Shown: piece by piece, positions 2,494-35,709 of the stretch
Numbering within the stretch: position 1 is the first letter of the stretch
Layout of the letters: each line of letters begins with the position of its first letter
Assembly (NCBI GenBank): GCA_024639885.1
Contig: JAHEGD010000003.1
Coordinates: 62,001-126,000, forward strand
DNA length: 64,000 bases
DNA from: Porticoccaceae bacterium
GTDB lineage: Bacteria; Pseudomonadota; Gammaproteobacteria; Pseudomonadales; Porticoccaceae
Direction of reading: 5' to 3'
Position numbers and translations under genes: made by a program
Notes under the pieces: generated by a model
What the model saw: only the letters and a program-made list of their open reading frames with translations
Told to the model about the DNA's origin: nothing
The model's database searches: none

Positions 2494-2532
2494 CGGGGTA
2501 CCTTGGGTAAGAGAATCATAGGGACGCGAGAG

Positions 2533-3585
<1,053 letters not shown>

Positions 3586-9427: not shown

Positions 9428-9463
9428 ATAAAAAACCGCCGCTGTCACCAGCGGCGGTTTTTT
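9428..9463. terminator. Rho-independent terminator after the ligase/dehydrogenase operon
   Basis: A perfect GC stem (ACCGCCGCTG / CAGCGGCGGT) with a 4-base loop is flanked by an A run and a run of six T. It lies 18 bp after the SDR stop and closes the 3858-9410 transcription unit. Confidence 0.9.
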
Positions 9464-9678
9464 GTTGACAGTTACAATTACCCTGAGAACGTCAGCAGCG
9501 CATTTTTATTAAAAACAATGAACATTCCGCTACGCTGTGGAGCGGTAAAAAACCCAGATCGACCGAACAGATGACATAGTCTGTAAGGATTATGCGACTA
9601 CCCATATGGATGTTGTTGCTGGCTAATTCTTGCGGCTAAAGTGTTTTTGCAACATAAATCACAAAAGGGGAAATACCA
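9464..9678 (+). promoter_or_regulatory. Upstream region of the TonB-dependent receptor
   Basis: About 215 bp without a gene. It must contain the receptor promoter. GGGGAAAT just before the ATG is the ribosome site. No clean sigma-70 pair or operator palindrome could be identified. Confidence 0.4.
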
Positions 9679-11910: not shown

Positions 11911-11933
11911 GTAGACCGCTACAGCAGTACCCT

Positions 11934-11969
11934 AAAGCCGCGCCGGCGAAAGTTTGGCGCGGCTTTTTT
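11934..11969. terminator. Rho-independent terminator after the TonB receptor
   Basis: The stem AAGCCGCGCC / GGCGCGGCTT with an 11-base loop is followed by a T run. It lies 23 bp after the receptor stop. Confidence 0.88.
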
Positions 11970-12013
11970 ATGCCACATAAATGGGCCATCGCCGCTAGCC
12001 GCCTTCGGCTTCC

Positions 12014-12925
12014 CTAGCCTGTCATCGTCTCGATAAGAATTTCTTTAAACCAGCGATGCAGCGGATCTTCCGCCAATACCCGCGGCCAGATCAGCAGCTT
12101 ATCTATCGGCGGCACCGGTAGTGGAAAGACCAGCGATTTAACCGCAAAGCGGGACTCGAGAAACGCACCCATCGCCGCCGGCACGGTACACAGTGCCTCG
12201 GTGTTCTCAACCACCATCGCCGCCGAGCTGAAATCTGATACCCTGGCTAGCATCTGCCGTTCGACACCCTGCCTGCCCAGCACGCCATTGAGAAGAGCAC
12301 TGCGCTGATTGTGGGTAGAGACCAGCACGTGCCGCTCGGCACCAAACTGCGCGACGTTAATCTCTCCTTTTATACGCGGATGGTCTCTTCTACAGATCAC
12401 TGCCAAGCTCTCCGTGCCAACCGGCTGAGACTCAACACCGGCCCCTGCTGGTGGCTGGTAGTAAATCGCAAAATCATTCTGGCCCTGTTTAAAGTCAGCC
12501 GGCAGCCCATCCGCCAGTATCGGCAACACCGTCACGCTGACCATCGGCGCCTCGGTTTCTAGCCGCTCAAGTAGCGCGGCCAAGTGTACCGTCTCAAAAT
12601 AATCACCGCCCAACAGGCTAAAACCTCGGTCACTTTGCGAGGGTTCTATCTGTTGCGGCGACAGGCTCTTGCGAATCTGCCCTAGGGCGGGGGCGAGCTC
12701 TGCATACCACTCTGTGGCTCGCGGCGTGGGCACCATACCACCGCCACAGCGGACAAACAGCGGGTCTTTAAGAGTAATCCGCAACCGCTGTAGCGCCGCG
12801 CTCATGGCCGGCTGGCTCAAACCGACCTGCGCGCCCGCCTTGGAGAGCTGCCCCGTGTCCATGATCGCCTCAAACACGGTCAGTAGATTTAAGTCGATGC
12901 CTTTTAGGTTAAACCGCTCAGCCAT
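12014..12925 (-). CDS. LysR-type transcriptional regulator
   Basis: This 303-residue regulator has an N-terminal winged helix-turn-helix (LNLLTVFEAIMDTGQLSKAG, then LSQPAMSAALQRLR) and a periplasmic-binding-protein-like effector domain. It resembles the NodD/NahR branch. The ATG at 12925 was chosen over a TTG four codons upstream. It is transcribed divergently from the class II aldolase gene across 134 bp of AT-rich DNA, the usual layout for a LysR activator of its neighbour. The inducer is unknown. Confidence 0.85.
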   Translation of the reverse strand: MAERFNLKGIDLNLLTVFEAIMDTGQLSKAGAQVGLSQPAMSAALQRLRITLKDPLFVRCGGGMVPTPRATEWYAELAPALGQIRKSLSPQQIEPSQSDRGFSLLGGDYFETVHLAALLERLETEAPMVSVTVLPILADGLPADFKQGQNDFAIYYQPPAGAGVESQPVGTESLAVICRRDHPRIKGEINVAQFGAERHVLVSTHNQRSALLNGVLGRQGVERQMLARVSDFSSAAMVVENTEALCTVPAAMGAFLESRFAVKSLVFPLPVPPIDKLLIWPRVLAEDPLHRWFKEILIETMTG

Positions 12926-12939
12926 ACTATTTACCAATT

Positions 12940-12968
12940 GGATAATTTAATTATTAAATATCAATTTT
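12940..12968. promoter_or_regulatory. AT-rich dyad in the LysR/aldolase divergent promoter
   Basis: An interrupted inverted repeat with ATTG and CAAT ends surrounds a very AT-rich core near 12,936-12,966, between the divergent LysR and aldolase genes. It is a plausible LysR operator by position. The arms are short, so this is tentative. Confidence 0.35.
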
Positions 12969-13059
12969 ACTTATAACTCAAGGCGCCATAGTCTATGAGC
13001 CCATGTAGTTAGTAGGGCTAGAGTTCCAGAAGTTTTAGCAGAGTAACCGAGGCAATAAC

Positions 13060-13830
13060 ATGAAACGATTTGACGGTCTTAACCAATCAATGGTCGAACA
13101 GTACGCCCCAAAAGCGGGCCGCCGCGAGCTTCTGCCAGAGTTAAGTGACAAAGCACAGGTAGCGCTGATGTGCCGCATGCTGTTCCGCGAGGGCTGGAAT
13201 GAGCACATTGCCGGCCATATCACGGTGCGCCTGGAAAACGGCAATATACTCACCAACCCTTGGGAGTTAGCTTGGGACGAGCTAACTGCCAGCGACATTG
13301 TGACGCTAGACCCTGACGGCAATATCATCGATGGCGAGTGGAATGTGACGCCCGCCATTGGGCTGCACCTTCAGCTTCACGCACTGCGCCCCGAAGTACA
13401 CGTCGTAATACACAACCATGCACATTGGAGCGGGATCTGGGCGAACATGCAGCGCGTACCGCCGGTCTATGACCAAACTGGCGCGCACTGCGGCATGGCC
13501 CTGCCTCTCTACAATGAATACCGCGGTACATTTGAGGATGAGGCGACGTCACTGTCGGCAGCAGAGGCGCTGGGCGAATCAAAATGGGCGCTACTGGCCA
13601 ACCACGGCTCGCTGGTGGTCGGCAAAGACCTGCGCCAAGCACACCTGCGCGCGATCACCTTAGAGTGGCGCAGCAAGCGGGCCTACGAGGTGGAACTGGC
13701 TGGTGGCGGCGTTCCACTCACTGCAGAGGAAGTCGAAAAAGTTGCCATAACCGACGCCTACGGCTTCCCCTTCTGCTGGGAAGCGATGGCCCGCCGCGAG
13801 TTGCGCGCCGACCCTTCGATTGTTGAATAG
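13060..13830 (+). CDS. Class II aldolase/adducin-family protein
   Basis: This 256-residue protein of the zinc-dependent class II aldolase family (L-fuculose-phosphate aldolase type) shows NEHIAGHIT, the metal-binding HNHAH motif (VIHNHAHW) and the third histidine in ANHGS, so the metal site is intact. GAGG precedes the ATG. Family members cleave or form C-C bonds of small hydroxy-carbonyl compounds, or act as decarboxylases or epimerases. It starts a three-gene plus-strand unit with a TauD-type dioxygenase 18 bp downstream and a CoA ligase beyond, opposite a LysR regulator. The substrate is unknown. Confidence 0.8.
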   Translation: MKRFDGLNQSMVEQYAPKAGRRELLPELSDKAQVALMCRMLFREGWNEHIAGHITVRLENGNILTNPWELAWDELTASDIVTLDPDGNIIDGEWNVTPAIGLHLQLHALRPEVHVVIHNHAHWSGIWANMQRVPPVYDQTGAHCGMALPLYNEYRGTFEDEATSLSAAEALGESKWALLANHGSLVVGKDLRQAHLRAITLEWRSKRAYEVELAGGGVPLTAEEVEKVAITDAYGFPFCWEAMARRELRADPSIVE

Positions 13831-13848
13831 TTAAACAAGGAAAATACC

Positions 13849-14775
13849 ATGAGCCTGACTGTCACCCCGCTAGACCATGTTGGCGTAGAGATCTCCGGTC
13901 TTAATCTTGAAGAGACCATCAGCGAAGCCACCCAACAGCAGCTGAGAGAGCTGTGGGATGAGCACGCCATTTTGGTTTTTCGCGACCAGCATATAACGCC
14001 CGAACAGCAGATCGAGTTCAGCCGTATATTTGGCCCGCTAGAGATGCACCCGCTGAAGGCGACCACGTCGGAGGAGTACCCCGAGCTGTTTGTATTAGAA
14101 AACGGCAGCGACAAGGATAAGTTTTTTACCGCGTTCTACAACGGTGAAGAGATTGTCGGCCGGCTCGACTGGCACATGGACCTGCACTACACCGCACGCC
14201 CAAACCGCGGCGCGCTGTTGCGCGCGGTGGTTGTCGCAGAAGAAGATGGCCTGACCGGTTTTGGCGATCTAGCCAAAGCCTACGACGCACTCGACGACGA
14301 GACCAAGGCGCTTGTAGAGAAACTGGAGGTGGCGTACACCTTTAGCATGCAGCGCCGACACATGCGCTACGTCAACTTAGACGGCTATGAGCCCGGCCCG
14401 TTCAGTCCTAAAAAGCCCGCCGACGTGGCTTTCCCGGACTTTGCCGATGCCGCTTACCCAATAGTAGTAAAACACCCGATCAGTGGCCGTAAGGTACTGG
14501 AGGTGGTCGAACAGTTTCTTGATCGCGTCATCACACCGCAGCAGTTTGGGCTCTCTAACGACGAGTCGATTGAACTCCTTGAGCGACTGGTTGAGCACGG
14601 TAAAAAAGCAGAGTTCACTTATTTCCACCACTGGAAAAAAGGCGACATGGTGCTGTGGGACAATTGGCGCGCGATGCACTGTACTACTGGCACCAAACCG
14701 GGTATCAAGCGGGTGATCAACCGCACCACTATCGCCGGCGATGTCACTCTCGGCCGGGTGCTCAAGGGCGAGTAG
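13849..14775 (+). CDS. TauD/TfdA-family Fe(II)/2-oxoglutarate dioxygenase
   Basis: This 308-residue dioxygenase has the facial triad H-x-D at His109 and Asp111 (LDWHMDLHY), the distal histidine in WRAMHCTTG near residue 272, and a downstream arginine in IKRVINRTT for 2-oxoglutarate. AAGGAAAAT precedes the ATG. Relatives hydroxylate sulfonates, aryloxyacetates or other acids and often release a leaving group. Here it lies between a class II aldolase and a CoA ligase under LysR control, which suggests hydroxylation of an organic acid before C-C cleavage. The substrate cannot be named. Confidence 0.85.
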   Translation: MSLTVTPLDHVGVEISGLNLEETISEATQQQLRELWDEHAILVFRDQHITPEQQIEFSRIFGPLEMHPLKATTSEEYPELFVLENGSDKDKFFTAFYNGEEIVGRLDWHMDLHYTARPNRGALLRAVVVAEEDGLTGFGDLAKAYDALDDETKALVEKLEVAYTFSMQRRHMRYVNLDGYEPGPFSPKKPADVAFPDFADAAYPIVVKHPISGRKVLEVVEQFLDRVITPQQFGLSNDESIELLERLVEHGKKAEFTYFHHWKKGDMVLWDNWRAMHCTTGTKPGIKRVINRTTIAGDVTLGRVLKGE

Positions 14776-14933
14776 ACCGCGATACAGCAAACCAGCGCAC
14801 TACTCTGGCCACCGAGATTACATGCAAGACACCGCAATGCGCAAAAATCCGCTGACGTGATACCACGCCACCGCGGTTGAATTAGACGCAGAGTAATCTG
14901 CCCCGCACATTAACCATGCCGTCGAGGAATAAC

Positions 14934-16550
14934 GTGAATAAATTAGACCTTTCCAACAACGCCGATCGAACCTTTCCGCAGATCCTCAAACAGCAAGCCG
15001 AGCACAATGGCGATGCCGAGTTCCTGATTACCGACGACGCACGCATTACCTTCTCGCAAGCGGAGTCGATCACTAACTGTCTGGCTACAGGGCTGGCCGC
15101 ACAGGGGCTGGCCCGCGGCGACATCGTCGCGCTGATGCTCGGCAACCGCCCAGAGATGGTGCTGCTGGCGTTGGCGATTAACAAGTTAGGGGCCATCTGG
15201 ACACCGATCAACGGCGACTACAAAGGGCAGTGGCTGCTCGACAACCTGCAGATGTCGCGGTGTAAACTGCTCGTCACCGACGACCAATACCAGCAGCGTA
15301 TCGCCGAGATCGAAGACCAGCTAGAGGTTAGCGCCATCGTCTTAATCGGCGATGGTGAACAGACCGCTCTCAATAACCCGATCAATTATTCGATCCTTGC
15401 CAGCCACGCCCCGGCCAAACTCAGTTATGCCGACCAGCACTACGGCGACACTTGCGCCATTCTGTGGACATCCGGCACTACCGGTAAGTCTAAGGGGGTG
15501 CTGCAAAGTTATAACTGCTGGATTCGCCCGATTGTTGATGGTGGTAGCCCGCAGTACCAGTCACAGTCCGGCGACATCATCTATTGCGTGCTGCCGCTGT
15601 TTCACACCGCCGCGTGGATAACCTCCATCTACCGCGCGCTGGTCGAGGGGATCCCCTGCGTGATCGAGCCGCGCTTTTCAGTCTCTACATTTTGGCAGCG
15701 GATCAAACATTTTGGCGCAACGCAGACTTTTTTATTGGGCGCCATGGGTGCCTTTGTGCTCAACGCAGAGGAGCGTGCCGACGACAGCGACACGCCCCTG
15801 CGCGTCGTTCAGGTAGTGCCGTTAGCACCGGCGCAGTGGCCCGTATTCGAACAGCGGTTTGGCGTTAAGCTGGTGCGCACTGGGCTGGGCCAAAGCGAAT
15901 GTCAGCTGATTATGACTCAGGTTGAAAACCGCGCTGATGTTCCCGTCTACGCGGTCGGTTTCCCCACCGCCGACACCGACGTTAAGCTACTCAATGACGA
16001 CGACCGTGAGGTCGCCCCCGGCGAGGTCGGCGAGATATGCATCAAACCGATGCATCCGCATATTATTTTTAATGGCTACTTCGACAACCCCGAAGCCACC
16101 GCCGAGGCCTACATCGGCGACTATTACCGCACCGGCGATCTCGGCAGACAGGACCCCGAAACTGGCGCCTATTTTTATGTCGATAGGAAAAAAGACGCGC
16201 TGCGCTTTGCCGGCAGAAATATTTCGACGCTTGAAGTTGAAAGCGTGGTGCGGCGCCACCCGGCGGTCAAAGATGTCGCCGCGTTCGGTATTCCATCACA
16301 AGAGGTCGAAAGCGAGCACGAGCTTAAATTGAATGTCATTCTCAAGGACGACCAAACCTGCAGCGCTGAGGAACTCTGTGGCTTTATCAACGCTAACGCT
16401 CCGCACTACTTTGTGCCCCGTTACTTAGACTTCGTGGCGACCCTGCCCTACACGCCGACCAATAAAGTGCAGAAGTTTAAACTGCGTGAGGCGGGTGTCG
16501 GCGAGCAGACCTGGGACCTCAAGCAATCTGACTATGTGGTTATAAAATAA
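14934..16550 (+). CDS. Acyl-CoA synthetase (AMP-forming), CaiC-like
   Basis: This 538-residue ANL ligase has ATP loop LWTSGTTGKSKGV, GLGQSECQL in the A5 position, YRTGDLGRQD, DRKKDALRFAGRNIS and the C-terminal lysine region YTPTNKVQKFKL. The GTG at 14934 is preferred because GAGGAA lies 6 bases upstream, whereas the ATG at 14916 has no site. The sequence resembles the CaiC/bile-acid-CoA ligase branch more than long-chain FadD. A 158-bp gap separates it from the dioxygenase gene, so it may have its own promoter or be the third gene of the LysR unit. Confidence 0.8.
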   Translation: MNKLDLSNNADRTFPQILKQQAEHNGDAEFLITDDARITFSQAESITNCLATGLAAQGLARGDIVALMLGNRPEMVLLALAINKLGAIWTPINGDYKGQWLLDNLQMSRCKLLVTDDQYQQRIAEIEDQLEVSAIVLIGDGEQTALNNPINYSILASHAPAKLSYADQHYGDTCAILWTSGTTGKSKGVLQSYNCWIRPIVDGGSPQYQSQSGDIIYCVLPLFHTAAWITSIYRALVEGIPCVIEPRFSVSTFWQRIKHFGATQTFLLGAMGAFVLNAEERADDSDTPLRVVQVVPLAPAQWPVFEQRFGVKLVRTGLGQSECQLIMTQVENRADVPVYAVGFPTADTDVKLLNDDDREVAPGEVGEICIKPMHPHIIFNGYFDNPEATAEAYIGDYYRTGDLGRQDPETGAYFYVDRKKDALRFAGRNISTLEVESVVRRHPAVKDVAAFGIPSQEVESEHELKLNVILKDDQTCSAEELCGFINANAPHYFVPRYLDFVATLPYTPTNKVQKFKLREAGVGEQTWDLKQSDYVVIK

Positions 16551-16597
16551 ACCGCTAGCCGGCTATTCAAACAGCGCCGTGTTACTTCACAACACAA

Positions 16598-16629
16598 CCC
16601 CGGCTGCACTGTCCCAGTAGCAGCCGGGG
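16598..16629. terminator. Strong hairpin between convergent genes
   Basis: A perfect 10-bp stem (CCCCGGCTGC / GCAGCCGGGG) with a 12-base loop lies between the ends of the CoA ligase (plus) and the SDR (minus). There is no T run on either side, so it may be a factor-assisted terminator or an mRNA 3'-end stabiliser for both transcripts. Confidence 0.6.
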
Positions 16630-16642
16630 CTTAGCCGCTGCG

Positions 16643-17458
16643 TTAGCGGTCTTCCGCTTGGTTATCTAGATTGGTGATATCAAACGCCGGCACATAGAGC
16701 TGTGGGGTTTTGCCGCCGTCGACGGGCAATATGACTCCGGTAATAAACGACGCCTCCTCGGAGCTGAGAAAGCAGATCGCTTGGGAAATCTCTTCAGCCA
16801 TAGCGGCGCGCTGCATGGGGATAGCGTCAGCGATGATTTTCTTAACTTTCTCATTTTTCATCGTCGCGGCATTCAGTCCCGGGGTCTCTACTGCCCCCGG
16901 TGCGACCACGTTAATGCGCACATTGTGTGGCGCTGCCTCCATTGCGGCACATTGGCTAAATTGATTGAGGGCGGCTTTAGCCGCGCCGTAGGCACCCGAT
17001 GCAATGCCGGCCCGCAAGCTGCTGACCGATGAAATATTGACGATCGAGCCGCTGCGCTGTGGAATCATAATCCGCATCGCTGCCTGCACTCCGATAAATA
17101 CGCTGTCGACACCGATACCAAAATTAGACCGCCACGCGTCTAAGCTCTGCTCTACCACCATGCCGCCAATGACCGAAGGCGCATTGTTTACCAGCACGTC
17201 GAGGCGGCCGTGCTTCTCAGCGGTTTCATTGATCATTGCGGCGAAAGCGTCCGTATCACCGACATCCAACTGGTAGCCGGTAAAACTACCGCCCAACTCG
17301 CTCACCGCGTCTGCAAGCTCGTCCAGCTTGGGCTTGCGCCGGGCACAGCTGACGACATGAGCGCCCTCGCTGGCGAGCTGTAACACCGTGCTTCGGCCAA
17401 TTCCCATGCTACCGCCGGTGACAATAGCGACTTTACCTGCAAACCGTTGACTACCCAT
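16643..17458 (-). CDS. Short-chain dehydrogenase/reductase, end of side-chain operon
   Basis: This 271-residue classical SDR has nucleotide loop GGSMGIG (residues 15-21), NNAP in the NNAG position, and catalytic Ser144, Tyr157, Lys161. GGAGTGAG precedes the ATG. It is the last gene of the minus-strand run TetR, chsH2, chsH1, ltp2, maoC fusion, SDR, 14 bp after the fusion. In a beta-oxidation-like series it could be the hydroxyacyl-CoA or hydroxysteroid dehydrogenase, but the aldolase route does not need one, so a role on the ring hydroxyls is equally possible. Confidence 0.8.
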   Translation of the reverse strand: MGSQRFAGKVAIVTGGSMGIGRSTVLQLASEGAHVVSCARRKPKLDELADAVSELGGSFTGYQLDVGDTDAFAAMINETAEKHGRLDVLVNNAPSVIGGMVVEQSLDAWRSNFGIGVDSVFIGVQAAMRIMIPQRSGSIVNISSVSSLRAGIASGAYGAAKAALNQFSQCAAMEAAPHNVRINVVAPGAVETPGLNAATMKNEKVKKIIADAIPMQRAAMAEEISQAICFLSSEEASFITGVILPVDGGKTPQLYVPAFDITNLDNQAEDR

Positions 17459-17472
17459 AACTCATCTCACTC

Positions 17473-18492
17473 CTAGTGGTTTTTGCCTGCCAGTTCGAGG
17501 GTAGCGCTACCCTTTACATGGAAGCCTATTGAATTTTTACCTGCAAAATTGACCGACACCTCAACGGCGCTCGCCGCGCGGTTGACCGCGGCGACCTCGC
17601 CCTCCATGACCATCACATCACCGGGCAGATTTGGCGCAGTCAGGCTAAATTTCAACAGACGCAGACGACTGCCCTCTCCTGCCCAATCGGTTAGATAGCC
17701 CGCCGAGAGACCGCAGGTGGTGAGGATATTCATAAAGATATCGGGCATGGCGGCGGCTTTTGCCGCTGGCACGTTGTGGTGAACCGGGATGAAATCCTGA
17801 GTGGCTATAGCGCCAGCCACGATCAGCTTATGGGTAATCGGGACGGCCCGCCCGGGCAGTTTATCGCCCGCCGCCACAGCGCCGGCATCGACAGCGAAAA
17901 ATTCGCCAAGCTCGGTGCCCTGCTCCGTCAGCGGGACTGGTGGGCGAGCATCGCGATGATCGGCCCGGCTATTGGAATCTACTTGGTTGTCGCCGGCGGG
18001 ACGGTATTGAAAATAGGTGATGCGCGCCTCGGCAAAGAGATCGTCGTGTTGGGTCAGATACTCCACTCGCTCGGTGACAAAATAGCCTTGACCCAACTGG
18101 GTGCTCTTCATGGCGCTGATATCGACCACCGTCGAGTAGTGCCGCGGGCGATCGCCGATACGCAAATGACGGTGGAACGTAATATCGTAACTGACCGCTA
18201 CGTTGGCCGGGTAACCGAGCGCCTCCATATCGACAAACACCTGGTAAGGGTGCTCATCAGTCGACCCCGGTGCAAAGCTGTCGTTGATGTCGCGCATCGT
18301 CCACATCTGCATCATCGCCGGCGGCGCAATCTGCTCCGGCCCTGGCTGATAGGCGGGATTGTTGTCGCCCATCGCCGAGGTCCACTGCCAAATCTGGGTG
18401 GCGCTAACCGGGTTAAAGCTGAGGTAGGGGCCGCGTCGGCGGCCCTTGAAGGCCTCGAGTTGGCGCGCTTCGTCGCTATTGTCGTTGGTCAT
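17473..18492 (-). CDS. Tandem MaoC-like enoyl-CoA hydratase, ChsH2-N/ChsH1 fusion
   Basis: This 339-residue protein is made of two hot-dog domains. The first half (about 1-165) resembles the N-terminal MaoC domain of ChsH2 and carries GDNNPAY at 42-48, where the catalytic His is replaced by Tyr. The second half (about 185-335) resembles ChsH1 and keeps the catalytic D-x4-H pair at Asp233 and His238 (QDFIPVHHN). This is one inactive and one active domain in a single chain, whereas ChsH1-ChsH2 does it with two subunits. It lacks a zinc ribbon/DUF35 tail. It lies 37 bp after the ltp2-type aldolase gene and may be a second side-chain hydratase with a different chain-length preference. Confidence 0.8.
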   Translation of the reverse strand: MTNDNSDEARQLEAFKGRRRGPYLSFNPVSATQIWQWTSAMGDNNPAYQPGPEQIAPPAMMQMWTMRDINDSFAPGSTDEHPYQVFVDMEALGYPANVAVSYDITFHRHLRIGDRPRHYSTVVDISAMKSTQLGQGYFVTERVEYLTQHDDLFAEARITYFQYRPAGDNQVDSNSRADHRDARPPVPLTEQGTELGEFFAVDAGAVAAGDKLPGRAVPITHKLIVAGAIATQDFIPVHHNVPAAKAAAMPDIFMNILTTCGLSAGYLTDWAGEGSRLRLLKFSLTAPNLPGDVMVMEGEVAAVNRAASAVEVSVNFAGKNSIGFHVKGSATLELAGKNH

Positions 18493-18529
18493 CTTTCGTT
18501 CCTATCAGTTCGGTCAGGCAAACTACTGC

Positions 18530-19711
18530 CTAGAGGGTATCCATAGTTCCCAATATCGCACCACCGGTCGGCACACCGACACCCGATGTCACCAGCACGT
18601 GGTTGATCTCTTTGTTGGGCTGGTTAACCGAGCCGCCACGTACTAGTCTGGCCGCCTCAACAATGCCATTAACGCCGTGAATGTAGGCCTCCGACAGCTG
18701 TCCGCCATTGGTGTTGGTCGGCAACCGGCCATCCAGCCGGAGGCTACCGTCGAGCACAAAATCATGGGCTCCAAAGCGCTCACAGAACCCCCAGCTCTCT
18801 AACTGGAATAACACCGTAGAGGAGAATGCATCGTAAAAAACCGCCGAATCGACATGCTCCGGCGACAACCCTGACTGGGCGTAGACCTGTTTGGCGGCAA
18901 TATCCATCGGCTGGGTTGTGGCTATCTCACCCTCATAAAAACTGGTCATCGACTCCATGTTGGCTGCCGCGCCCTGCGCCACCCCTCTGATTACCACCCC
19001 CGGCTGGCGCAGATGTTTGGCGCGCTCGACGCTGGTAATCACCACTGCAGAGGCGCCGTCGGACTCCAAACAGCAGTCGTATAGCTGAAACGGATCGACA
19101 ACCTTTTTCTGCGCGTCATACTCTTGGCGGTCGAACGGCTGGCCGTAAAACAACGCCTGCGGGTTAGTGGCGGCGTGCTGGCGCATCGTATAGGCAACTT
19201 CAAAGAGTGAATCCTTGGTGCAGTTGCCAAGATGCATGTAGCGCTGAGTACACATCGCCACCCATGAGGCTGGGGTCAGTAACCCATAGGGCATATACCA
19301 GCCCCAATGAATGCTGTCCGAGGTAGTGATCTCGCCCGATACACCGGCGGAAAAGCGATGACCAGACCGCCCGTTCAACCCGCGGTAGATCACCACACAC
19401 TTGGCCATACCGGTCGCTACCGCCATCGCCGCTTGGTGCACCAGCCCAGTGGCGGCACCACCGCCATGCGGTACCCGCGAATAAAAGCTCAGGTCGCCAA
19501 TCCCCACGGCGCGCGCCACTTCGATCTCGTCGCTGGTGTCCATAGCAAAGGTACTCATGCCATCCACATCACCGGGCTTTAAGCCGGCATCAGCCAGTGC
19601 GGCAGCGACCACCTCTGCGGCGAGTTGAAGCTCGGAGCGGCCGGAGTTTTTTGAGAACTCGGTGTTGGCGACACCGACAATAGCGGCCTTATTACTGATA
19701 TTGACAGTCAT
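18530..19711 (-). CDS. ltp2: Ltp2-type steroid side-chain aldolase (thiolase/SCP-x superfamily)
   Basis: The protein has 393 residues and a thiolase fold without the usual catalytic cysteines. Tyr293 (VFYDAF) and Tyr343 (SEAYIHG) fall at the positions of the two catalytic tyrosines reported for actinobacterial Ltp2. The motif NTNGGQLSEAYIHG is typical of the lipid-transfer-protein thiolase group. Ltp2 performs the retro-aldol cleavage of the hydrated C22 steroid-CoA, releasing propionyl-CoA and a 17-keto steroid, and needs the DUF35 domain of ChsH2 as partner. Both partners are encoded directly upstream; only two bases separate it from chsH1. GAGGAG precedes the ATG. The call is strengthened by this gene order. 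Confidence 0.85.
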   Translation of the reverse strand: MTVNISNKAAIVGVANTEFSKNSGRSELQLAAEVVAAALADAGLKPGDVDGMSTFAMDTSDEIEVARAVGIGDLSFYSRVPHGGGAATGLVHQAAMAVATGMAKCVVIYRGLNGRSGHRFSAGVSGEITTSDSIHWGWYMPYGLLTPASWVAMCTQRYMHLGNCTKDSLFEVAYTMRQHAATNPQALFYGQPFDRQEYDAQKKVVDPFQLYDCCLESDGASAVVITSVERAKHLRQPGVVIRGVAQGAAANMESMTSFYEGEIATTQPMDIAAKQVYAQSGLSPEHVDSAVFYDAFSSTVLFQLESWGFCERFGAHDFVLDGSLRLDGRLPTNTNGGQLSEAYIHGVNGIVEAARLVRGGSVNQPNKEINHVLVTSGVGVPTGGAILGTMDTL

Positions 19712-19713
19712 CT

Positions 19714-20142
19714 CTACGCGCTCCTCGGCAGCTCAATTTGGACTTTTGCCTGCATGTGCATACCCCAGACGTTGTTTTCCCCGAGGACAGCTATTTCAAC
19801 GGTGCCTAAGGCGTCGTCCTTGGCCACCACTTCGCCGCTAATGGTCATGACAAATCCAGGCAGATTGGGTGAGCCCAGTTTTAGATCTATCTTTTTTGTT
19901 GTCGAATCGGGGCCCGCCCAATTGGTGACATAGCTGCCTACCAATCCGTTACTGGTCAGTATGTTCATAAACACATCGGGCAGCCCCGCCTGCTGTGCGG
20001 CCTTTCTGTCGTGATGAACCGGGGTAAAATCTCTAGAAGCGACTGCACCGCCCACCACTAGCGCGGCGGTGATCGGCACCTCTCTGGGCGCCAACTGGTC
20101 ACCGATTTGTACGGCTTCAAAATTTAACGTTTCTGATGACAT
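19714..20142 (-). CDS. chsH1: ChsH1-type MaoC-like enoyl-CoA hydratase subunit
   Basis: This 142-residue single hot-dog domain carries the catalytic D-x4-H pair at Asp38 and His43 (SRDFTPVHHD) and the family segment DVFMNILTSNGLVGSYVTNWAG. In Mycobacterium ChsH1 supplies the active site of the ChsH1-ChsH2 hydratase acting on the steroid C22 enoyl-CoA. The ATG at 20142 is used because AAGGAAG lies 7 bases upstream; a TTG two codons earlier falls inside the spacer. It follows chsH2 by 12 bp and precedes the aldolase by 2 bp. Confidence 0.85.
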   Translation of the reverse strand: MSSETLNFEAVQIGDQLAPREVPITAALVVGGAVASRDFTPVHHDRKAAQQAGLPDVFMNILTSNGLVGSYVTNWAGPDSTTKKIDLKLGSPNLPGFVMTISGEVVAKDDALGTVEIAVLGENNVWGMHMQAKVQIELPRSA

Positions 20143-20154
20143 ATTCAACTTCCT

Positions 20155-21126
20155 TTAAGCCGGATAGAATTGCGGCAACATGGTCTTTTCATCCACTTGC
20201 TCGACTTTGCCTTGTACCTTCATGCCGATGGTTACGGCGTCATGATCGATACCAACAATGTTTGCAACCAGACGGGTGCCCTCGGCAAGCTCGATGACCG
20301 CGCAGCAGAGCGGGTAGTGATAGCCGGGCACCTTGGGGTGATAAAGGGTAGTAAAACTATAGACCTCACCCGCCAGCGCCGACTCGATCGAATCCCACTC
20401 AACTGACTGACACTGGCCACACATCGGTCGCGGCGGATGCCGCAGTGTCGAACAGGACTTACAGCGCTGAATTAGCACCTTGCCGGCATCGACAGCCTGC
20501 CACCACCAACCGTTATCTTGGCCACGTGGCGATGGGATACGCACCGGAGGCGCCGGAGTGCCAGACTGCTCCGTACTATCCTGCGCGCCTTGGCCGTTGG
20601 ACTCATTGGGAATAAATTTGAGAACCCGAAATACTTGGCGGCCGACAGCTTCACCGTGCTGGTCGGTGAACACCGTCACCGTCTCAATAAAGTAACCAAT
20701 ACCGCGCGCGGTCGCTTTTTGCTCCGAGATAGTGTCGATCGTAGTCTGCGAAGTGACCGAATCACCGGGCCGTAGATCGCGATACATCTCCGTCGAGGTA
20801 TTGGTGCCCAACACCCCGGTGAAGCCGAAGCTATCGAATATTTGATGCAGTGCCCGCTGCTCGTCAACGGCTGGGCTAGCGGCCATCGGATAGCCCTCCA
20901 TGCTCCAGACTTGCAACATCGAGGGCGGTGCGATAATACCGCCCTTGGCGGTAGTTGAGGCGCGCTGTTGATCAAAATAGATCGACGACTCATCGCCCAT
21001 GACTTCGGCCCATTGACGGATCATGGCGACATTGACATCGTCCATCGACTTTTTGGGCTGGCCAATTGCACGGCCAACGTATGCATATATCTGCTCTTCA
21101 AGTGCTTGCCTGTCTGCTGCTGTCAT
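20155..21126 (-). CDS. chsH2: ChsH2-type protein: MaoC-like domain plus DUF35 zinc ribbon/OB fold
   Basis: This 323-residue protein has two domains. Residues 1-175 form a MaoC-like hot-dog in which the catalytic His is replaced (GDESSIY at 44-50), as in ChsH2. Residues about 200-323 form a DUF35 domain with a four-cysteine ribbon at Cys222, Cys225, Cys236, Cys239, then an OB-fold. In the known system the first domain completes the hydratase with ChsH1 and the second docks on Ltp2 to make the active aldolase. The ATG at 21126 with GGTGG upstream was preferred; a GTG at 21204 would add 26 residues not expected in the family. The next two genes are chsH1 and ltp2. Confidence 0.85.
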   Translation of the reverse strand: MTAADRQALEEQIYAYVGRAIGQPKKSMDDVNVAMIRQWAEVMGDESSIYFDQQRASTTAKGGIIAPPSMLQVWSMEGYPMAASPAVDEQRALHQIFDSFGFTGVLGTNTSTEMYRDLRPGDSVTSQTTIDTISEQKATARGIGYFIETVTVFTDQHGEAVGRQVFRVLKFIPNESNGQGAQDSTEQSGTPAPPVRIPSPRGQDNGWWWQAVDAGKVLIQRCKSCSTLRHPPRPMCGQCQSVEWDSIESALAGEVYSFTTLYHPKVPGYHYPLCCAVIELAEGTRLVANIVGIDHDAVTIGMKVQGKVEQVDEKTMLPQFYPA

Positions 21127-21234
21127 TGCGTCTACCACCGCTGTCGTTAATTTAAAAGTTAAATCCAATTGGCCGATTAGTTTGTTACCCGGACGCCCCG
21201 CCACAGTGCGAGGGGCCGGGGCCGCCGCAAACCG

Positions 21235-21960
21235 CTACCTGACCGACTCTGCTCGCATCGCCTGAAGTGCGGTGGTATAGCACAGCTTTTCAGCTGGCGG
21301 CATCTGTAAAAACAGACCGCGATAAAACAACACGGTAATCAGCTCGGTCATCTCATCGACCTCGAGTAGATGGCTGACAAGCACCTCTTCGCGATTGATG
21401 TAATAGTCGCGGAGAATCGTCTCGCCGGTGCCGGCCAGTGCATACACCACCATCAGTGCCTGATGCTCCGATAGCCCGGCCTCGGGAAAAAGGCGCGGCA
21501 TATAGCGGGTTAACCAACCGAGCTGTTGGATAAAATTTCGTCGTAACAGTCCGGCAAACTCTTCGCTTTCGTCGGCCAGCTGCAGCAGCGCGCGCATCAG
21601 CCCGGGCCGCTCTGCATAGGCTCTAACCACTAACCGGTTGTGGGCAAACATACGCTCGTACCAACCACCGTTAATCACCTCGCGCTCAATCTCCTCGAGC
21701 CGCAATGCAGAAGCGACAAAATCTTCCAGCACCTCAACCACCAACGACCTCAGGTCGCTGAAGTAGTGGTAAAAAAGCCCGGACGCAACGCCAGCCTCGG
21801 CGGTGACGTCGCCGATCCGCATTTTGTGGTAGCCGACCTCTTCTAGCACTGTCAAAGCCGCAGATTTGAGCTTTGCACGAGACTTTTGCCCCTTCGGGCT
21901 CGGCGCTTTAGTGCGTACTACCCTTGGTTTTGCGCTGCTCTTGACCGTATTGGTTGCCAT
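21235..21960 (-). CDS. TetR-family transcriptional regulator
   Basis: This 241-residue regulator has a basic 25-residue N-terminal extension, then the TetR helix-turn-helix (VLEEVGYHKMRIGDVTAEAG, then ASGLFYHYFSDLRSLV). The ligand domain has no assignable family. It lies at the head of the chsH2-chsH1-ltp2 run on the same strand and is divergent from the acyl-CoA dehydrogenase pair at 22120, so it probably controls both directions, in the manner of KstR-type repressors that respond to steroid-CoA ligands. That last point is inference from position. Confidence 0.85.
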   Translation of the reverse strand: MATNTVKSSAKPRVVRTKAPSPKGQKSRAKLKSAALTVLEEVGYHKMRIGDVTAEAGVASGLFYHYFSDLRSLVVEVLEDFVASALRLEEIEREVINGGWYERMFAHNRLVVRAYAERPGLMRALLQLADESEEFAGLLRRNFIQQLGWLTRYMPRLFPEAGLSEHQALMVVYALAGTGETILRDYYINREEVLVSHLLEVDEMTELITVLFYRGLFLQMPPAEKLCYTTALQAMRAESVR

Positions 21961-22002
21961 TGCCTTGGTATCCCCTGCCTAACCGTTAATTTCACGAAAA
22001 AT

Positions 22003-22014
22003 TGATAAATATCA
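22003..22014. promoter_or_regulatory. Candidate TetR operator, imperfect palindrome TGATA-AA-TATCA
   Basis: Two 5-bp arms around an AA centre lie about 40 bp upstream of the TetR start in the divergent region. It is one of two dyads in the 159-bp gap. Confidence 0.4.
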
Positions 22015-22022
22015 TTTTTTTA

Positions 22023-22046
22023 TTGAAATTGAATTCAAAACCAATA
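22023..22046. promoter_or_regulatory. Candidate TetR operator, dyad centred on TTGAATTCAA
   Basis: The perfect 10-bp palindrome TTGAATTCAA at 22029-22038 lies inside a larger dyad with outer arms ATTG and CAAT. The size (about 24 bp), symmetry and place between a TetR gene and its divergent target are what an operator would show. Binding is not demonstrated. Confidence 0.5.
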
Positions 22047-22119
22047 ATATAGCAACCTGATTGGACGCGCAAGCGATCAACGCCGACTCACAAACCGCCA
22101 CGAGACGAAGAGTACTCAT

Positions 22120-23307
22120 ATGATTATTGACTACAGCAGTGAGCAAAACGCCCTACGCAAAGAGCTTAGAGAGTACTTCTCTCAGCTGATCAAACCCGAA
22201 TACGCCGACGAGCTGCGCGGCGCCGAGGGGGGCGACCTTTACAAGAGCCTTATCCGCCAGATGGGCGAGGACGGCTGGCTGGCACTGGGCTGGCCAAAAG
22301 AGTACGGCGGCCGCGGGGCAACCACCAGCGAACAGCTGATGTTCTTTGAGGAGGCCCTATTGGCAGGCGCGCCGGTCCCCTTTGTCACCCTCAACACCGT
22401 AGGGCCGGCGCTGATCGACCACGGCAGCGAAGAGATGAAGAAAAAGTTTTTACCCGGTATTGCCGCCGGCGAGACACACTTTTCGATCGGCTATTCCGAG
22501 CCCGGCGCCGGCTCCGACCTCGCCGCGCTCACAACTAGCGCAATAGTTGATCCCGATGACCCCGACTACTACCTGATCACCGGGACAAAAGTGTATACCT
22601 CGGCGGCTGAGGTGGCTGACTACGTCTGGCTGGCGGTGCGGACCACCCCGGATTCCCGGCAGCACGGGGTGAGCATACTGGTGGTCGACACCACCCTGCC
22701 CGGCTTCAGCTACGCGCCGATTCATACCGTCGGTGGCGTACGCACCAATATCAGCTACTACGAAAACGTCCGCGTCCATAAATCGATGATGGTTGGCGAG
22801 CCAGATAAAGGTTGGGGCTTGATTATGTCGCAGCTCAACCACGAACGGATTGGCCTCGCTGCCTGGGGCGTGCAGGGCTGGAAGCTGTACAGCCGCGCCC
22901 TCAAGTGGGCACGAACAGCCAGCGATGCGCCGCACAACAAGGGGCAACGCCCGATTGACGAGCCTCGCATCCAAACCTACCTAGCCGAGGCGCTCGCGCG
23001 CCTAGAAGCGATGCGGGTGATGAATTTCAGAATGGCCTGGCAGCTCGATAACGGTGACATGAGCCCAGCGCTGGCGTCCGCGCTCAAGGTCGCGTCGACC
23101 GAGGGCATGGTAGAAATTTGCCGCCTACTGACCGAATGTTTAGGCCCCGCCAGCTTGGTGCGGGCAGGTTCTCCTGCAGCCGTACTGATGGGTGACTTAG
23201 AGCATGAATATCGCCGCTGCCAGATCAGCACCTTTGGCGGCGGCACCAATGAGATACAGCGCGGACTGGTGGCCAGCTTTGGCCTCAACATGCCGCGCCA
23301 CCGTTAA
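22120..23307 (+). CDS. Acyl-CoA dehydrogenase, FadE26-like steroid side-chain subunit
   Basis: This 395-residue enzyme has DGWLALGWPKEYGGRG near residue 55, IGYSEPGAGSDLA near 125 and FGGGTNEIQRGLVA at the C-terminus. The N-terminal block and the LNHERIGLA segment closely resemble actinobacterial FadE26/FadE28, the FAD-binding halves of the heterotetrameric dehydrogenases that start each side-chain beta-oxidation cycle. Its partner gene follows 17 bp later. It is divergent from the TetR-chsH2-chsH1-ltp2 operon, so the dehydrogenase, hydratase and aldolase of one cycle are together. Confidence 0.85.
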   Translation: MIIDYSSEQNALRKELREYFSQLIKPEYADELRGAEGGDLYKSLIRQMGEDGWLALGWPKEYGGRGATTSEQLMFFEEALLAGAPVPFVTLNTVGPALIDHGSEEMKKKFLPGIAAGETHFSIGYSEPGAGSDLAALTTSAIVDPDDPDYYLITGTKVYTSAAEVADYVWLAVRTTPDSRQHGVSILVVDTTLPGFSYAPIHTVGGVRTNISYYENVRVHKSMMVGEPDKGWGLIMSQLNHERIGLAAWGVQGWKLYSRALKWARTASDAPHNKGQRPIDEPRIQTYLAEALARLEAMRVMNFRMAWQLDNGDMSPALASALKVASTEGMVEICRLLTECLGPASLVRAGSPAAVLMGDLEHEYRRCQISTFGGGTNEIQRGLVASFGLNMPRHR

Positions 23308-23324
23308 TTAACAGGGTTATCACT

Positions 23325-24470
23325 ATGGACTTTTCATTCAGCCAAGACCAAACCGCTATCCGCGATCTAGCCCGGCAAGTTTTTACTGACCGCAACAGCG
23401 ACCAATTTATGGCCAGTTTCGACCGCGCCGGTAAAGTTTACGACGAAGAGCAATGGCAGCTGCTCGCCGAGCAGGGGCTGCTGGGTATCGCCATCCCTGA
23501 ACAGTTCGGTGGCTCCGGGCTCGGCTTCACCGAGCTCTGTCTGCTGCTCGAAGAGCAGGGCCGCAGGGTTGCCCCGCTGCCACTGCTGTCAAGCGTGGTA
23601 CTCGGCGCTCTGCCGATCGACCAGTTTGGTAGCGACAGCCAAAAAGCCATATACCTGACCCCCCTCGCCTCCGGCGCACTCAAGCTGACTGCCGCCATTG
23701 CAGAGCGCGCCATGGCCAGCGCTGTGGCCGGCCAGGTGACCGCTAGCCGGCAGGGCGAGCAGTGGGTGTTGAACGGCTATTTAGACTGCGTAGCGGATGG
23801 GTCGGTCGCCGATGCTATTCTGGTACCAGCTTTCATTGACGGCGAGATGGCCTTTTTTATTGTCGATACCGATCAGCAAGGTGTTGTTGTGCAAGCGCAA
23901 TCAACATCACTGCGGGCCAATACCAGCTCCTTGAGGCTGAACAATGCCACACTAAGCAGTGAGGCCATATTGGGCGAGCCAGGCCAAGGGAGTGCCATCA
24001 TGGAGTGGCTTGAACAGCACGCCGAGACCGCCATCTGCGCCATCGTACTCGGTGTCACCGAAGAGGCGCTCAGGCGCACCGCCGAGTTCACCTGTGAGCG
24101 CAAGCAGTTTGGCGCTGCCATCGGGTCTTTCCAAGCCGTCGCTATGCAGGCAGCCGATGCCTACATAGACGTCGAGGCGATTCGCTGCACCTACTGGCTC
24201 GCTCTCTACAAACTGTCTAACCAGCTCGATGCACGGGCAGAGGTCTGCTGCGCCAAGTGGCATGCGGCCGATGCCGGGCACCGAGTGGCCTACCGAACCC
24301 AGCACTTGTACGGTGGCATCGGGGCTGACTTAGAGTACCCGAGCCATCGCTATTTTTTATGGGCCAAGCACTTTGGAATGATGCTCGGCGGGCGCAGCTC
24401 GACCATCGCTCGGCTCGGCGCACTGCTGGCTGCCGACGACACGATCGGACTCGCGGCCCTTGAGATCTAG
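23325..24470 (+). CDS. Acyl-CoA dehydrogenase, FadE27-like partner subunit
   Basis: This 381-residue acyl-CoA dehydrogenase-fold protein lacks the GGTNEIQ motif but keeps the central CERKQFGAAIGSFQAVAMQ helix and LYGGIGADLEYPSHRYFLWAKH near the end. This is the pattern of the FadE27/FadE29 half, which shares one FAD site with its partner. AGGG precedes the ATG. Coupled to the FadE26-like gene and closed by a terminator 22 bp after the stop. Confidence 0.82.
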   Translation: MDFSFSQDQTAIRDLARQVFTDRNSDQFMASFDRAGKVYDEEQWQLLAEQGLLGIAIPEQFGGSGLGFTELCLLLEEQGRRVAPLPLLSSVVLGALPIDQFGSDSQKAIYLTPLASGALKLTAAIAERAMASAVAGQVTASRQGEQWVLNGYLDCVADGSVADAILVPAFIDGEMAFFIVDTDQQGVVVQAQSTSLRANTSSLRLNNATLSSEAILGEPGQGSAIMEWLEQHAETAICAIVLGVTEEALRRTAEFTCERKQFGAAIGSFQAVAMQAADAYIDVEAIRCTYWLALYKLSNQLDARAEVCCAKWHAADAGHRVAYRTQHLYGGIGADLEYPSHRYFLWAKHFGMMLGGRSSTIARLGALLAADDTIGLAALEI

Positions 24471-24492
24471 CATCAGCTATCTCGCAGAAACG

Positions 24493-24520
24493 AAAAAACC
24501 AGCCTCTAGGCTGGTTTTTT
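24493..24520. terminator. Rho-independent terminator after the FadE pair
   Basis: A perfect 8-bp stem (AACCAGCC / GGCTGGTT) with a TCTA loop is flanked by an A run and six T. It closes the 22120-24470 unit. Confidence 0.9.
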
Positions 24521-24648
24521 ATTTTGCCGTACCCAAAACGCACCCCAGCACTGCGAATTGTTCGGCAACCAAACCGAGCACCCGCTCACAACATTAAAGT
24601 GGTTGTAGAGTTCGACGCAGCGACAACCGACAACACGGTAGTGCCCTA

Positions 24649-25107
24649 CTAAGGCGCGCGCCTAACATCTAATTGCCCGCGAAAATGGTTGGATAGGTCG
24701 CCAAAGTAAATTGGCAATATCTTGCGTTCGGTGAAGTACCAGCCGCCGCCATCAGACGCCAACTGGTCGCGGTAGCGTCCGCTCATCACCTCCCGCTCGG
24801 CACTACCGGCAAGCGCTTGGCGCACCACAAACAGGGAGCGTACCGTGGCGCGATCTTGCTGAGCATTCAATTCAATCATCAGATTGGTAACTTGGTGGCT
24901 GGTGCACGGGGTACCCGTCTGCGGGTAGATGATGATCTGGCGCTGATAAAACTCCTTCAGCGCGCTGTAACCGGCTAGCCGCCAGCCGCTCGGTAGCGAC
25001 ACCACCGCACCGCGCTCAAACAGCCGCGCCAGCGCGTCAAAATCACCGCCGTCGATATGCTCGGCGTAGCGGTAGATCAACTGTTCAATGGCGCGGTAGT
25101 GGTCCAT
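24649..25107 (-). CDS. SnoaL-like (NTF2-fold) protein
   Basis: The protein has 152 residues from the ATG at 25107. The opening AIEQLIYRYAEHIDGGDFDALARLF is typical of SnoaL_4 proteins found beside aromatic and steroid oxygenases. An upstream ATG at 25155 would add 16 residues without family likeness and neither has a clear ribosome site. It lacks the Tyr/Asp/Asp set of ketosteroid isomerase seen at 179-547, so a small lyase, isomerase or structural subunit role is possible but unassigned. It stands alone between the FadE terminator and the AraC gene. Confidence 0.65.
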   Translation of the reverse strand: MDHYRAIEQLIYRYAEHIDGGDFDALARLFERGAVVSLPSGWRLAGYSALKEFYQRQIIIYPQTGTPCTSHQVTNLMIELNAQQDRATVRSLFVVRQALAGSAEREVMSGRYRDQLASDGGGWYFTERKILPIYFGDLSNHFRGQLDVRRAP

Positions 25108-26442: not shown

Positions 26443-26954
26443 ATGGGTACAAACCACAATAGCCTGCTGCGTACCGACATTACTACAAACGGATTAACCA
26501 ACGCGCTCTTCAATGGCGTGATCTGCTGGTGGCTGATCAAGGACAAAGGGCCGCTGGGCTGGTGGGCTGGTGGGGGGCGCACAGCTTTGGCGCCGACCTG
26601 CTGGCCACTGGATTTATCCTGCCGCTGATCGTGGCACTGATCGTGGTGCCGCTGCAGCGGCGCAAGGTGCGCAGCGGCAAAGTCACCCCGCTAAAGGCTA
26701 CACAGTTAACCAACCGTTACTTCAAGCTGTTTGCCAGCGCCCCCACCCCGCTCTGGCAGTGCGCCGCCTATTTTGGCAGCGCCGGTGTCGCGCTGGTCGC
26801 GCTACCCACCCTCGGGCTGCTCTGGATCGCGGGCATCGAACAGTTCAGCGCCGCACAATTTGCCGTTTTCAAGGGCCTCTGGGCGGGGCTGCTGGCAGCC
26901 AGCCTGACCGGACCGATGGTGCTACTCGGCTGGCGCGCCGACACCCACGCATAG
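26443..26954 (+). pseudogene. Small membrane protein gene broken by an 8-bp tandem duplication
   Basis: Two overlapping frames form one gene. Frame 1 from the ATG at 26443 gives LTNALFNGVICWWLIKDKG and then runs out of sense at 26572. The other frame then continues with AHSFGADLLATGFILPLIVA and further hydrophobic segments to the TAG at 26952. The octamer GGCTGGTG occurs twice in tandem at 26557-26572; removing one copy joins the frames as LGWWGAHSFG and gives a 167-residue protein with about four membrane helices. I do not recognise its function. It is either a pseudogene, a slippage-switchable gene, or a sequencing or assembly error. It precedes the flavoenzyme gene by 35 bp. Confidence 0.75.
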
Positions 26955-26989
26955 ATCGTTCACACACCACTCTTTACAGGCACTACGCT

Positions 26990-35403: not shown

Positions 35404-35709
35404 CGCTGGCCCCTGTTGTGAGAGCAATTTTTTTGTTTTAGTTTGCAGCCAGCCGTCAGCGATCTGAATGCAATTCTGGGTTAGTAAATTAACCGCTTTC
35501 GCGCCACCGAACAGCCCACAAACGGACGATGTTGGCCCCGCCCCAAGGCGGCAGTGACGGCGCCGCTACCGACTAGTCCGAATGCGGGTATCTGCCAAGA
35601 CAGCCGTTGGGTACATTATTGACCAGATATTCAGGTCTCGACCGGCCGTTACGGCGGTCGCGGTGACCAGTGACAACAACGATAATCACTTCAACAACCA
35701 CGGAGATTG
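35404..35709. promoter_or_regulatory. Divergent region between flavoprotein and 5-alpha-reductase genes
   Basis: About 306 bp without a gene. It contains an inverted repeat GGTTA-N6-TAACC at 35479-35494 that could bind a regulator. No regulator gene lies next to it and no confident promoter was identified. Confidence 0.4.

Follow-up and report, generated by a model that had tools for sequence, protein, structure and literature searches.

In a window of 64,000 nucleotides from a Porticoccaceae bacterium (assembly GCA_024639885.1, contig JAHEGD010000003.1, positions 62,001 to 126,000), we describe a compact steroid side-chain operon, which is another representative of an already known operon type, the cycle that removes propionyl-CoA from C22 steroid acids. 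TetR, ChsH2, ChsH1, Ltp2, a MaoC fusion and a short-chain dehydrogenase (SDR) lie on the minus strand at 16643-21960, with neighbouring open reading frames (ORFs) separated by 2-37 bases, and are divergent from two acyl-CoA dehydrogenases (ACADs), AcdA and AcdB, on the plus strand at 22120-24470. All eight ORFs of the original prediction, which was made from the sequence alone, were found at their places and on their strands (Table 1). It is very probable that the operon carries out the last side-chain cycle of steroid breakdown, from a C22 acid to the 17-ketone, is repressed by its TetR and was gained as part of a block. New are the details: the comparison of this block with a steroid island that lacks it, a likely operator, a clade of aldolases with the motif YDAF, and the pairing of the MaoC fusion with the SDR.

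Aldolase, hydratase and dehydrogenase

The core of the original prediction, that the dehydrogenase, hydratase and aldolase of one igr-like cycle are gathered here, was borne out by family, structure and genome searches, with ChsH2, ChsH1 and Ltp2 each matching its own reference. In a search of the Protein Data Bank (PDB), the best match of Ltp2 was 6ok1_A, the Ltp2 of Thermomonospora (E 1.6e-131, 442 bits), followed by 4u4e (163.8 bits) and 9myr_A (124.6 bits). Against the NCBIfam model PRK07855, a lipid-transfer subfamily, Ltp2 scored 552.7 bits (cut-off 469). The predicted tyrosines 293 and 343 are both present in the motif table and are the counterparts of Tyr294 and Tyr344 of TcLtp2, its catalytic base and acid (PMC12329534). 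What had been overlooked is that the histidine of the YDHF motif, placed in the oxyanion hole of TcLtp2, is Ala295 in the window Ltp2, giving YDAF. Because replacing this histidine in TcLtp2 cost only ~14-fold (PMC12329534), it was not counted as a defining feature of the C3 cycle. The Ltp2-ChsH2(DUF35) complex of Thermomonospora curvata, 6ok1, is the closest solved aldolase and shares both tyrosines, yet differs at this histidine and at the glycine of its LGEAY motif, which is Ser340 in the window.

YDAF was found in 53/53 sampled sequences of the window Ltp2 clade. In a tree of 89 sequences these 53, second Halieaceae copies of Ltp2 included, form one group (support 0.757) and 8 sequences have YDHF; these counts are biased towards YDAF, the query itself being of that type. 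Five positions co-vary (114, 244, 295, 340 and 378). At position 340, three residues before the catalytic Tyr343, serine occurs in 53/53 YDAF sequences and glycine in 8/8 YDHF sequences. Remoter thiolase relatives often have serine there as well and therefore, from the alignment, glycine may be the derived state. Our guess is that Ser340 substitutes for the histidine. One could take the change of the oxyanion-hole histidine to alanine, of glycine to serine at 340, and the three further co-varying sites as signs that the YDAF aldolase acts on a substrate other than a C17-hydroxylated steroid. We consider this very improbable: the gene lies in a steroid island, has ChsH1, ChsH2 and ChsE partners in Halieaceae, and the cost of losing the histidine in TcLtp2 was small. 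Moreover, a sponge Halieaceae isolate, BC51, grows on cholesterol (PMC5790920), and our locus L030 (isolate BC5_1) is probably from that isolate. A literature search on Ltp2 and steroid aldolase motifs found no publication with YDAF, and one for Tcur3481/Tcur3483 found nothing.

A Sal-type C5 aldolase was also considered. The Shy-Sal bile-acid hydratase-aldolase of Comamonas (9myr, assigned by its molecule names) shares the superfamily and the pairing with DUF35, but 9myr_A falls far below 6ok1_A in score, and the motif YDCY of CtSal (PMC12329534) is replaced by YDAF; the Sal type was ruled out on both counts. YDCY was seen in none of the three Ltp2-type aldolases found in the genome that carries the window (G000), the other two having YDGF and YDDY. 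As a separate observation, nine Halieaceae-type loci (L029, L030, L031, L034, L039, L043, L049, L050 and L066) contain a second Ltp2, 52-55% identical to that of the window, and a DUF35 match beside AcdB; in L029 this set lies at 1835-3414.

ChsH2 combines MaoC and DUF35 domains, with FAS1_DH, zf-ChsH2 and OB_ChsH2_C all above their Pfam cut-offs and PDB matches to 6ok1_B, 4wnb_A and 4w78_A. Its relatives align from residue 26-27, which points to the ATG near 21126 as the probable true start, in place of the GTG at 21204. The catalytic Asp-His dyad of ChsH1 is present; the predicted numbering, Asp38 and His43, holds when counted from Met3 (the ATG at 20142, probably the true start), and the residues become Asp40 and His45 when counted from the listed TTG start.

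The two ACADs had been likened to FadE26/FadE27. In the PDB, AcdA is closest to 4x28_A (374 bits), a chain that we take to be FadE26, and AcdB to 6wy8_A (245 bits); the best matches of both are the two chains of 4x28 and of 6wy8. For neither protein was a ChsE1-ChsE2 structure recognised among the best 60 of 86 PDB matches. The FadE26/FadE27 label was nevertheless dropped, because the pair adjoins chsH1-chsH2-ltp2 in other loci and other phyla, and ChsE1/ChsE2 (FadE28/29) of the C3 cycle is the better name. Glu242 of AcdA is glutamate in 31/31 AcdA rows, and the aligned AcdB position is alanine in 29, glycine in 1 and threonine in 1 of 31. Heteromeric ACADs have one catalytic glutamate per subunit pair (PMC8399759). 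The single glutamate per AcdA-AcdB pair is, as far as alignment can indicate, what would be expected of such a two-subunit enzyme.

Gene company and the likely operator

The equivalent genes were compared in 46 named loci with Ltp2 relatives. Ltp2 is 63-81% identical in loci titled Halieaceae, Halioglobus, Haliea, Gammaproteobacteria and similar (and 64% in one Rhizobiaceae group locus), 59-64% in metagenome-assembled genomes (MAGs) of Myxococcota and Deltaproteobacteria (one titled Spirochaeta, one 'bacterium'), and 52-54% in Mycobacterium and other Actinobacteria. The prediction that the host is a gammaproteobacterium fits the titles of the nearest loci, which are Halieaceae. AcdB-AcdA divergent from TetR-ChsH2-ChsH1-Ltp2 recurs in L026, L027 and L061 (in L027 AcdB is missing from the ORF map), and the five enzyme genes are also together in a deltaproteobacterial MAG (L058) and in Mycobacterium L064. 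The latter has ChsH2 in two pieces and the order P450 (read by eye), AcdA, ChsH2 MaoC, DUF35 match, AcdB, ChsH1, Ltp2. The Halieaceae and Halioglobus clusters (L026, L029, L061 and others) resemble the window in TetR and palindrome wherever the locus reaches; unlike the window, several have the second Ltp2 with a stand-alone DUF35, and L026 and L029 have a nearby thiolase above the FadA5 cut-off. No TetR match was found in 20/46 loci and no ACAD match in several, some of this owing to contig ends.

Between tetR and acdA lies a 22-bp palindrome at 22023-22044, with 2 mismatches to TTGAAWTTGAATTCAAWTTCAA. This pattern occurs once in the window, with 0 expected from shuffles, and was present in 26/26 named loci with TetR and 0/20 without. 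In 25/25 measurable loci, all with a TetR match of >100 bits, TetR and AcdA point away from each other, with the palindrome in the region of their starts and in most cases 55-58 bases ahead of AcdA; L045 has only a partial TetR. The pattern was derived from L026, L027 and L061, with L029 in view, so that these four are not independent of it and the other 22 loci are. Its position and company mark the palindrome as the likely TetR operator.

The operon type has well-studied relatives. Mycobacterial igr, whose order is presumably cyp125-fadE28-fadE29-chsH2-chsH1-ltp2, likewise encodes the dehydrogenase, hydratase and aldolase for a C3 side chain, and the ChsH1/ChsH2 structures that best match our hydratase parts are, we assume, mycobacterial. 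The window differs in having no cyp125, so that it is not igr in the strict sense, and in its extra genes and divergent regulator. In Comamonas testosteroni TA441, deletion and complementation prove that ORF40-44 (ChsE1E2, ChsH1H2, Ltp2) are the dehydrogenase, hydratase and aldolase removing the propionyl residue (PMC12502768). The predicted cycle therefore stands, but its occurrence in a gammaproteobacterium is not unusual, TA441 being a proven proteobacterial equivalent. TA441 and the window share the five enzyme genes, the MaoC-DUF35 fusion of ChsH2 and a setting in a proteobacterial steroid cluster (a comparison by description, not sequence); in the window the ACAD genes are adjacent and divergent behind TetR, and the operon also has a MaoC fusion and an SDR. 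TA441 moreover has the sal1/shy1-like ORF54/55 in its mega-cluster (PMC12502768), in contrast to G000, where no Sal-type motif was found. Scd2AB/Shy2/Sal2 of S. stutzeri is another equivalent, partly identified, and most steroid side-chain degraders seem to have retained a cluster of this kind in similar synteny (PMC8399759).

A block within a steroid island

Genes were annotated in the window up to 48 kb and in its left flank. Ring-pathway genes there include two KshA-type oxygenases, an FAD-binding protein, a steroid 5-alpha-reductase-domain protein, a sulfatase and many SDRs; the left flank has thiolases, ACADs, an HsaC-type dioxygenase that scores 302 bits (cut-off 450) and a 573-aa KstD-type protein that scores 519 bits (cut-off 789). 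The names IpdA, IpdB, IpdC, HsaB, HsaD, EchA20 and FadD3 were given by eye, with no curated cut-off. KstD was rejected as a name for the FAD-binding protein, whose best NCBIfam match is an FAD-binding subfamily without a name. A genome of the same genus, G001, has the island in the same order (island genes 55-95% identical, the HsaC-type gene 85%) and, at the thresholds used, no Ltp2, MaoC fusion, ligase or TauD. DNA alignment of the two genomes stops at window position 9463 and restarts at 24668, delimiting a block of ~15.2 kb with one 97-base inverted match inside. In G000 the block holds a TonB receptor, LysR, class II aldolase, TauD, acyl-CoA ligase, the operon and the ACAD pair; in its place G001 has a single TonB-receptor gene in the opposite direction, 26% identical to the window receptor. 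The borders gave no sign of mobile-element ends: no direct repeats were found within 501 bases at either border, only terminator-like hairpins; repeats shared between the two ends were not sought.

Gain of the block in G000 is the simpler reading. Its GC content is 0.566, compared with 0.617 and 0.603 in the adjoining DNA, and ranks lowest among 250 overlapping stretches of equal length on contig C2; in addition, no other genome of family f1 in the searches matches at E 1e-100. Both facts count against the reverse, loss of the side-chain genes in G001, which we regard as quite unlikely, even though only two genomes of the genus were compared and other families of the order carry side-chain genes. 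Of 390 genomes sampled from the order, 53 (G000 and 52 others) contain an Ltp2 with an E value of at most 1e-100. The ligase occurs in 40 of the other 52 (and in 2 genomes without Ltp2), TauD in 22 (and in 1 without); these counts record presence per genome, not neighbourhood, and ignore relatedness, as do the P values, which were not used as probabilities. By matched coordinates, a ligase homologue lies within ~15 bases of an Ltp2 paralogue in G217, G231, G255, G293 and G341. TauD and ligase are adjacent in G190, G205 and G211, with stops in the TauD of G205. TauD was rejected as an alkyl sulfatase, its nearest PDB matches being phenoxypropionate dioxygenases (121 bits; AtsK 72 bits), and we claim no substrate for it. 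Literature on Halieaceae, Halioglobus and horizontal transfer yielded no paper with a listing that describes this block; one paper names Halieaceae for another enzyme (PMC11061730).

Table 1. Features of the block and operon in window coordinates
Feature	Position	Strand	Evidence
TonB-dependent receptor, part of block, candidate uptake receptor	9679..11910	+	family match
LysR-family regulator, part of block	12014..12937	-	family match
Class II aldolase/adducin protein, part of block	13060..13830	+	Pfam Aldolase_II
TauD/TfdA-type dioxygenase, part of block	13849..14775	+	23/24 genomes with TauD also have Ltp2, G000 counted
Acyl-CoA ligase, candidate activator of C22 acid	14916..16550	+	family matches; homologue near Ltp2 paralogue in 5 genomes
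SDR dehydrogenase, recurring partner of MaoC fusion	16643..17458	-	family matches; gene neighbourhood in L094-L102
MaoC fusion, ChsH2-type MaoC + ChsH1-type MaoC, no DUF35	17473..18492	-	D233-x4-H238 present
Ltp2 retro-aldolase, Tyr293 + Tyr343, YDAF for YDHF	18530..19711	-	6ok1_A E 1.6e-131; motif table
ChsH1, catalytic MaoC hydratase subunit, D-x4-H dyad	19714..20148	-	4wnb_B E 3.4e-24; RDFTPVHH motif
ChsH2 (MaoC-like domain + DUF35: zinc ribbon and OB fold)	20155..21204	-	Pfam domains, PDB matches
TetR-family regulator, 241 aa	21235..21960	-	Pfam TetR_N above cut-off; homologue adjoins equivalent genes in 26/46 named loci
Likely TetR operator, palindrome TTGAAATTGAATTCAAAACCAA	22023..22044	.	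between tetR and acdA
AcdA, ChsE-type acyl-CoA dehydrogenase subunit, likely catalytic Glu242	22120..23307	+	domain and PDB matches; Glu in 31/31 rows
AcdB, partner subunit, RKQFG motif kept, Glu absent	23325..24470	+	aligned position Glu in 0/31 rows
Block absent from same-genus genome G001	9464..24667	.	gene order and DNA alignment

Other genes of the island deserve mention. A protein with a 3-oxo-5-alpha-steroid 4-dehydrogenase domain (Steroid_dh) at 35707-36516, 95% identical in G001, lies within the degradation island, as does the sulfatase at 44456-46060 (77% identical in G001), for which use of steroid sulfates is possible. The two KshA-type Rieske oxygenases, at 565-1728 and 38241-39242, possibly serve different substrates. 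At 33268-33909 is a SnoaL-like protein of 213 aa, 89% identical in G001 and 70-74% identical beside the equivalent OYE gene in Halieaceae loci; it has no NCBIfam match at E 1e-20 and could be a steroid dehydratase or isomerase. In the ORF at 26570-29119 the OYE/FadH-like domain starts near residue 148, and the listed GTG start seems too far upstream.

Substrate, proposed pathway and meaning

No cyp125-type P450 had been seen at the locus, and this was extended to the whole of G000. Three places in G000 belong to the P450 family, none of them on contig C2, and none gave a sterol-type NCBIfam match at E 1e-30. The one compared with the PDB is closest to YjiB (162 bits), a chain named CYP125MRCA reaching 128 bits. 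Against the P450 beside Ltp2 in Mycobacterium L065 (CYP125 or CYP142 type), the best E value in G000 is 1.1e-46, while relatives reach 309 bits; 7 of 54 genomes (the 52 other Ltp2 genomes, G000 and G001) have no match to it at E 1e-30. CYP125 elsewhere in the genome was thus rejected, none of the three P450s looking CYP125/142-like. FadA5 was likewise not found, the best G000 score against model NF005889 being 395 bits (cut-off 515). G000 and G001 both fail this cut-off, which 31 of the 54 genomes pass, among them 23 of 26 other genomes with an Ltp2 at least 62% identical. With neither FadA5 nor a CYP125/142-like P450 nor a Sal-type aldolase found, the substrate is more likely to be a C22 acid than an intact sterol or a C24 bile acid. 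The question of the substrate, left open in the original prediction, therefore tips towards C22 acids, the last cycle being the only one recognised; this is a likely reading of the gene content.

The MaoC fusion and SDR had been counted as part of the same cycle, which is not quite right. ChsH2 matches residues 20-168 of the fusion and ChsH1 residues 222-335, so that the first half of the fusion is ChsH2-like and the second, which carries the Asp-His dyad, is ChsH1-like; DUF35 is absent. Directly downstream an SDR homologue (66-83%) follows in 9/9 loci (L094-L102; the fusion is partial in L102 and the SDR is split over two frames in L099). One family has, in ten loci (L103-L112), two separate genes that the halves match, a ChsH2 with DUF35 and a ChsH1, and behind them an Ltp2 at ~50%; a set of this kind is therefore the probable origin of the fusion, which would have parted from the aldolase. 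Judged by these domains and neighbours, fusion and SDR probably form a second hydratase/dehydrogenase step on another acyl chain. An AlphaFold model of the fusion made from two sequences (mean pLDDT 32) was not used.

If so, the block might be a complete route for C24 bile acids, in which the fusion, the SDR and a general thiolase remove C23-C24 first and the igr-like genes complete the removal; fusion and SDR would then be comparable to the two parts of animal MFE-2. Alternatively, the fusion would act like CasD with hydroxyacyl-CoA dehydrogenase in Rhodococcus (PMC11321319, PMC8399759). Its two MaoC domains without DUF35, hence not tied to the aldolase, and its constant SDR neighbour would suit such a role. 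Moreover, in four of the eight genomes with a complete or nearly complete fusion gene (G140, G190, G269 and G325) the fusion lies at most 10 kb from a FadA5-model thiolase, in L050 it is beside a thiolase (one not scored against that model), and a single query found 8 near-full-length thiolase places in G000. The C24 route is nonetheless unlikely: no G000 thiolase exceeds the steroid-thiolase cut-off, the other four genomes have the fusion at a great distance from the FadA5-model thiolase or on another contig, the block holds no second ACAD pair (the pairs to its left also occur in G001, which lacks the block), and the SDR, read by eye, is without the acidic residue expected for NAD use.

From the computed homologies, gene company, catalytic residues, palindrome and difference from G001 we infer enzyme activities, substrate, repression, and gain rather than loss, as follows. 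The CoA ligase (14916) would activate a C22 acid of the pregnane-20-carboxylate type, AcdA-AcdB would introduce the C17-C20 double bond, and hydration at C17 would fall to ChsH1 together with the MaoC half of ChsH2. Cleavage by Ltp2 and the DUF35 half of ChsH2 would then release propionyl-CoA, and the remaining 17-ketone would enter the ring pathway, which is encoded to the left and right. Bound to the palindrome, TetR would keep both divergent transcripts repressed, and the whole block (about 9.46-24.67 kb) would have been gained by an ancestor that already had the ring pathway.

Several points weigh against this account. Function is read from sequence, and the alanine in place of the active-site histidine of Ltp2 could mean a different rate or substrate. 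The presence of the MaoC fusion and SDR may be a sign of another cycle, which would imply longer side chains. Since the G000 assembly (39 contigs) is 97.8% complete, FadA5 or the P450 could lie in the missing part, and 21 of the 52 other Ltp2 genomes also fail the FadA5 cut-off (G216 through a fragment at a contig end). One same-genus genome was compared, loss in G001 is possible, and the filler in G001 is also GC-poor (0.504).

Tentatively, we suggest that a self-contained C22-acid module of receptor, ligase, dehydrogenase, hydratase, aldolase and TetR with its operator may move between bacteria, making a degrader of side-chain-free steroids a scavenger of C22 acids leaked by sterol and bile-acid degraders, its aldolase belonging to a clade in which the histidine is replaced and Ser340 perhaps stands in. 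For the acquisition of side-chain use, G000 and G001 offer a near-clean natural comparison between two versions of one island within a genus, one of them lacking the side-chain block, and a likely operator of the block can now be named. Moreover, a large clade of proteobacterial and myxococcal sequences does not share every residue of the active site known from one actinobacterial Ltp2 structure. Should the C22-acid reading be true, steroid breakdown would be divisible between species that open the side chain and species that finish it.

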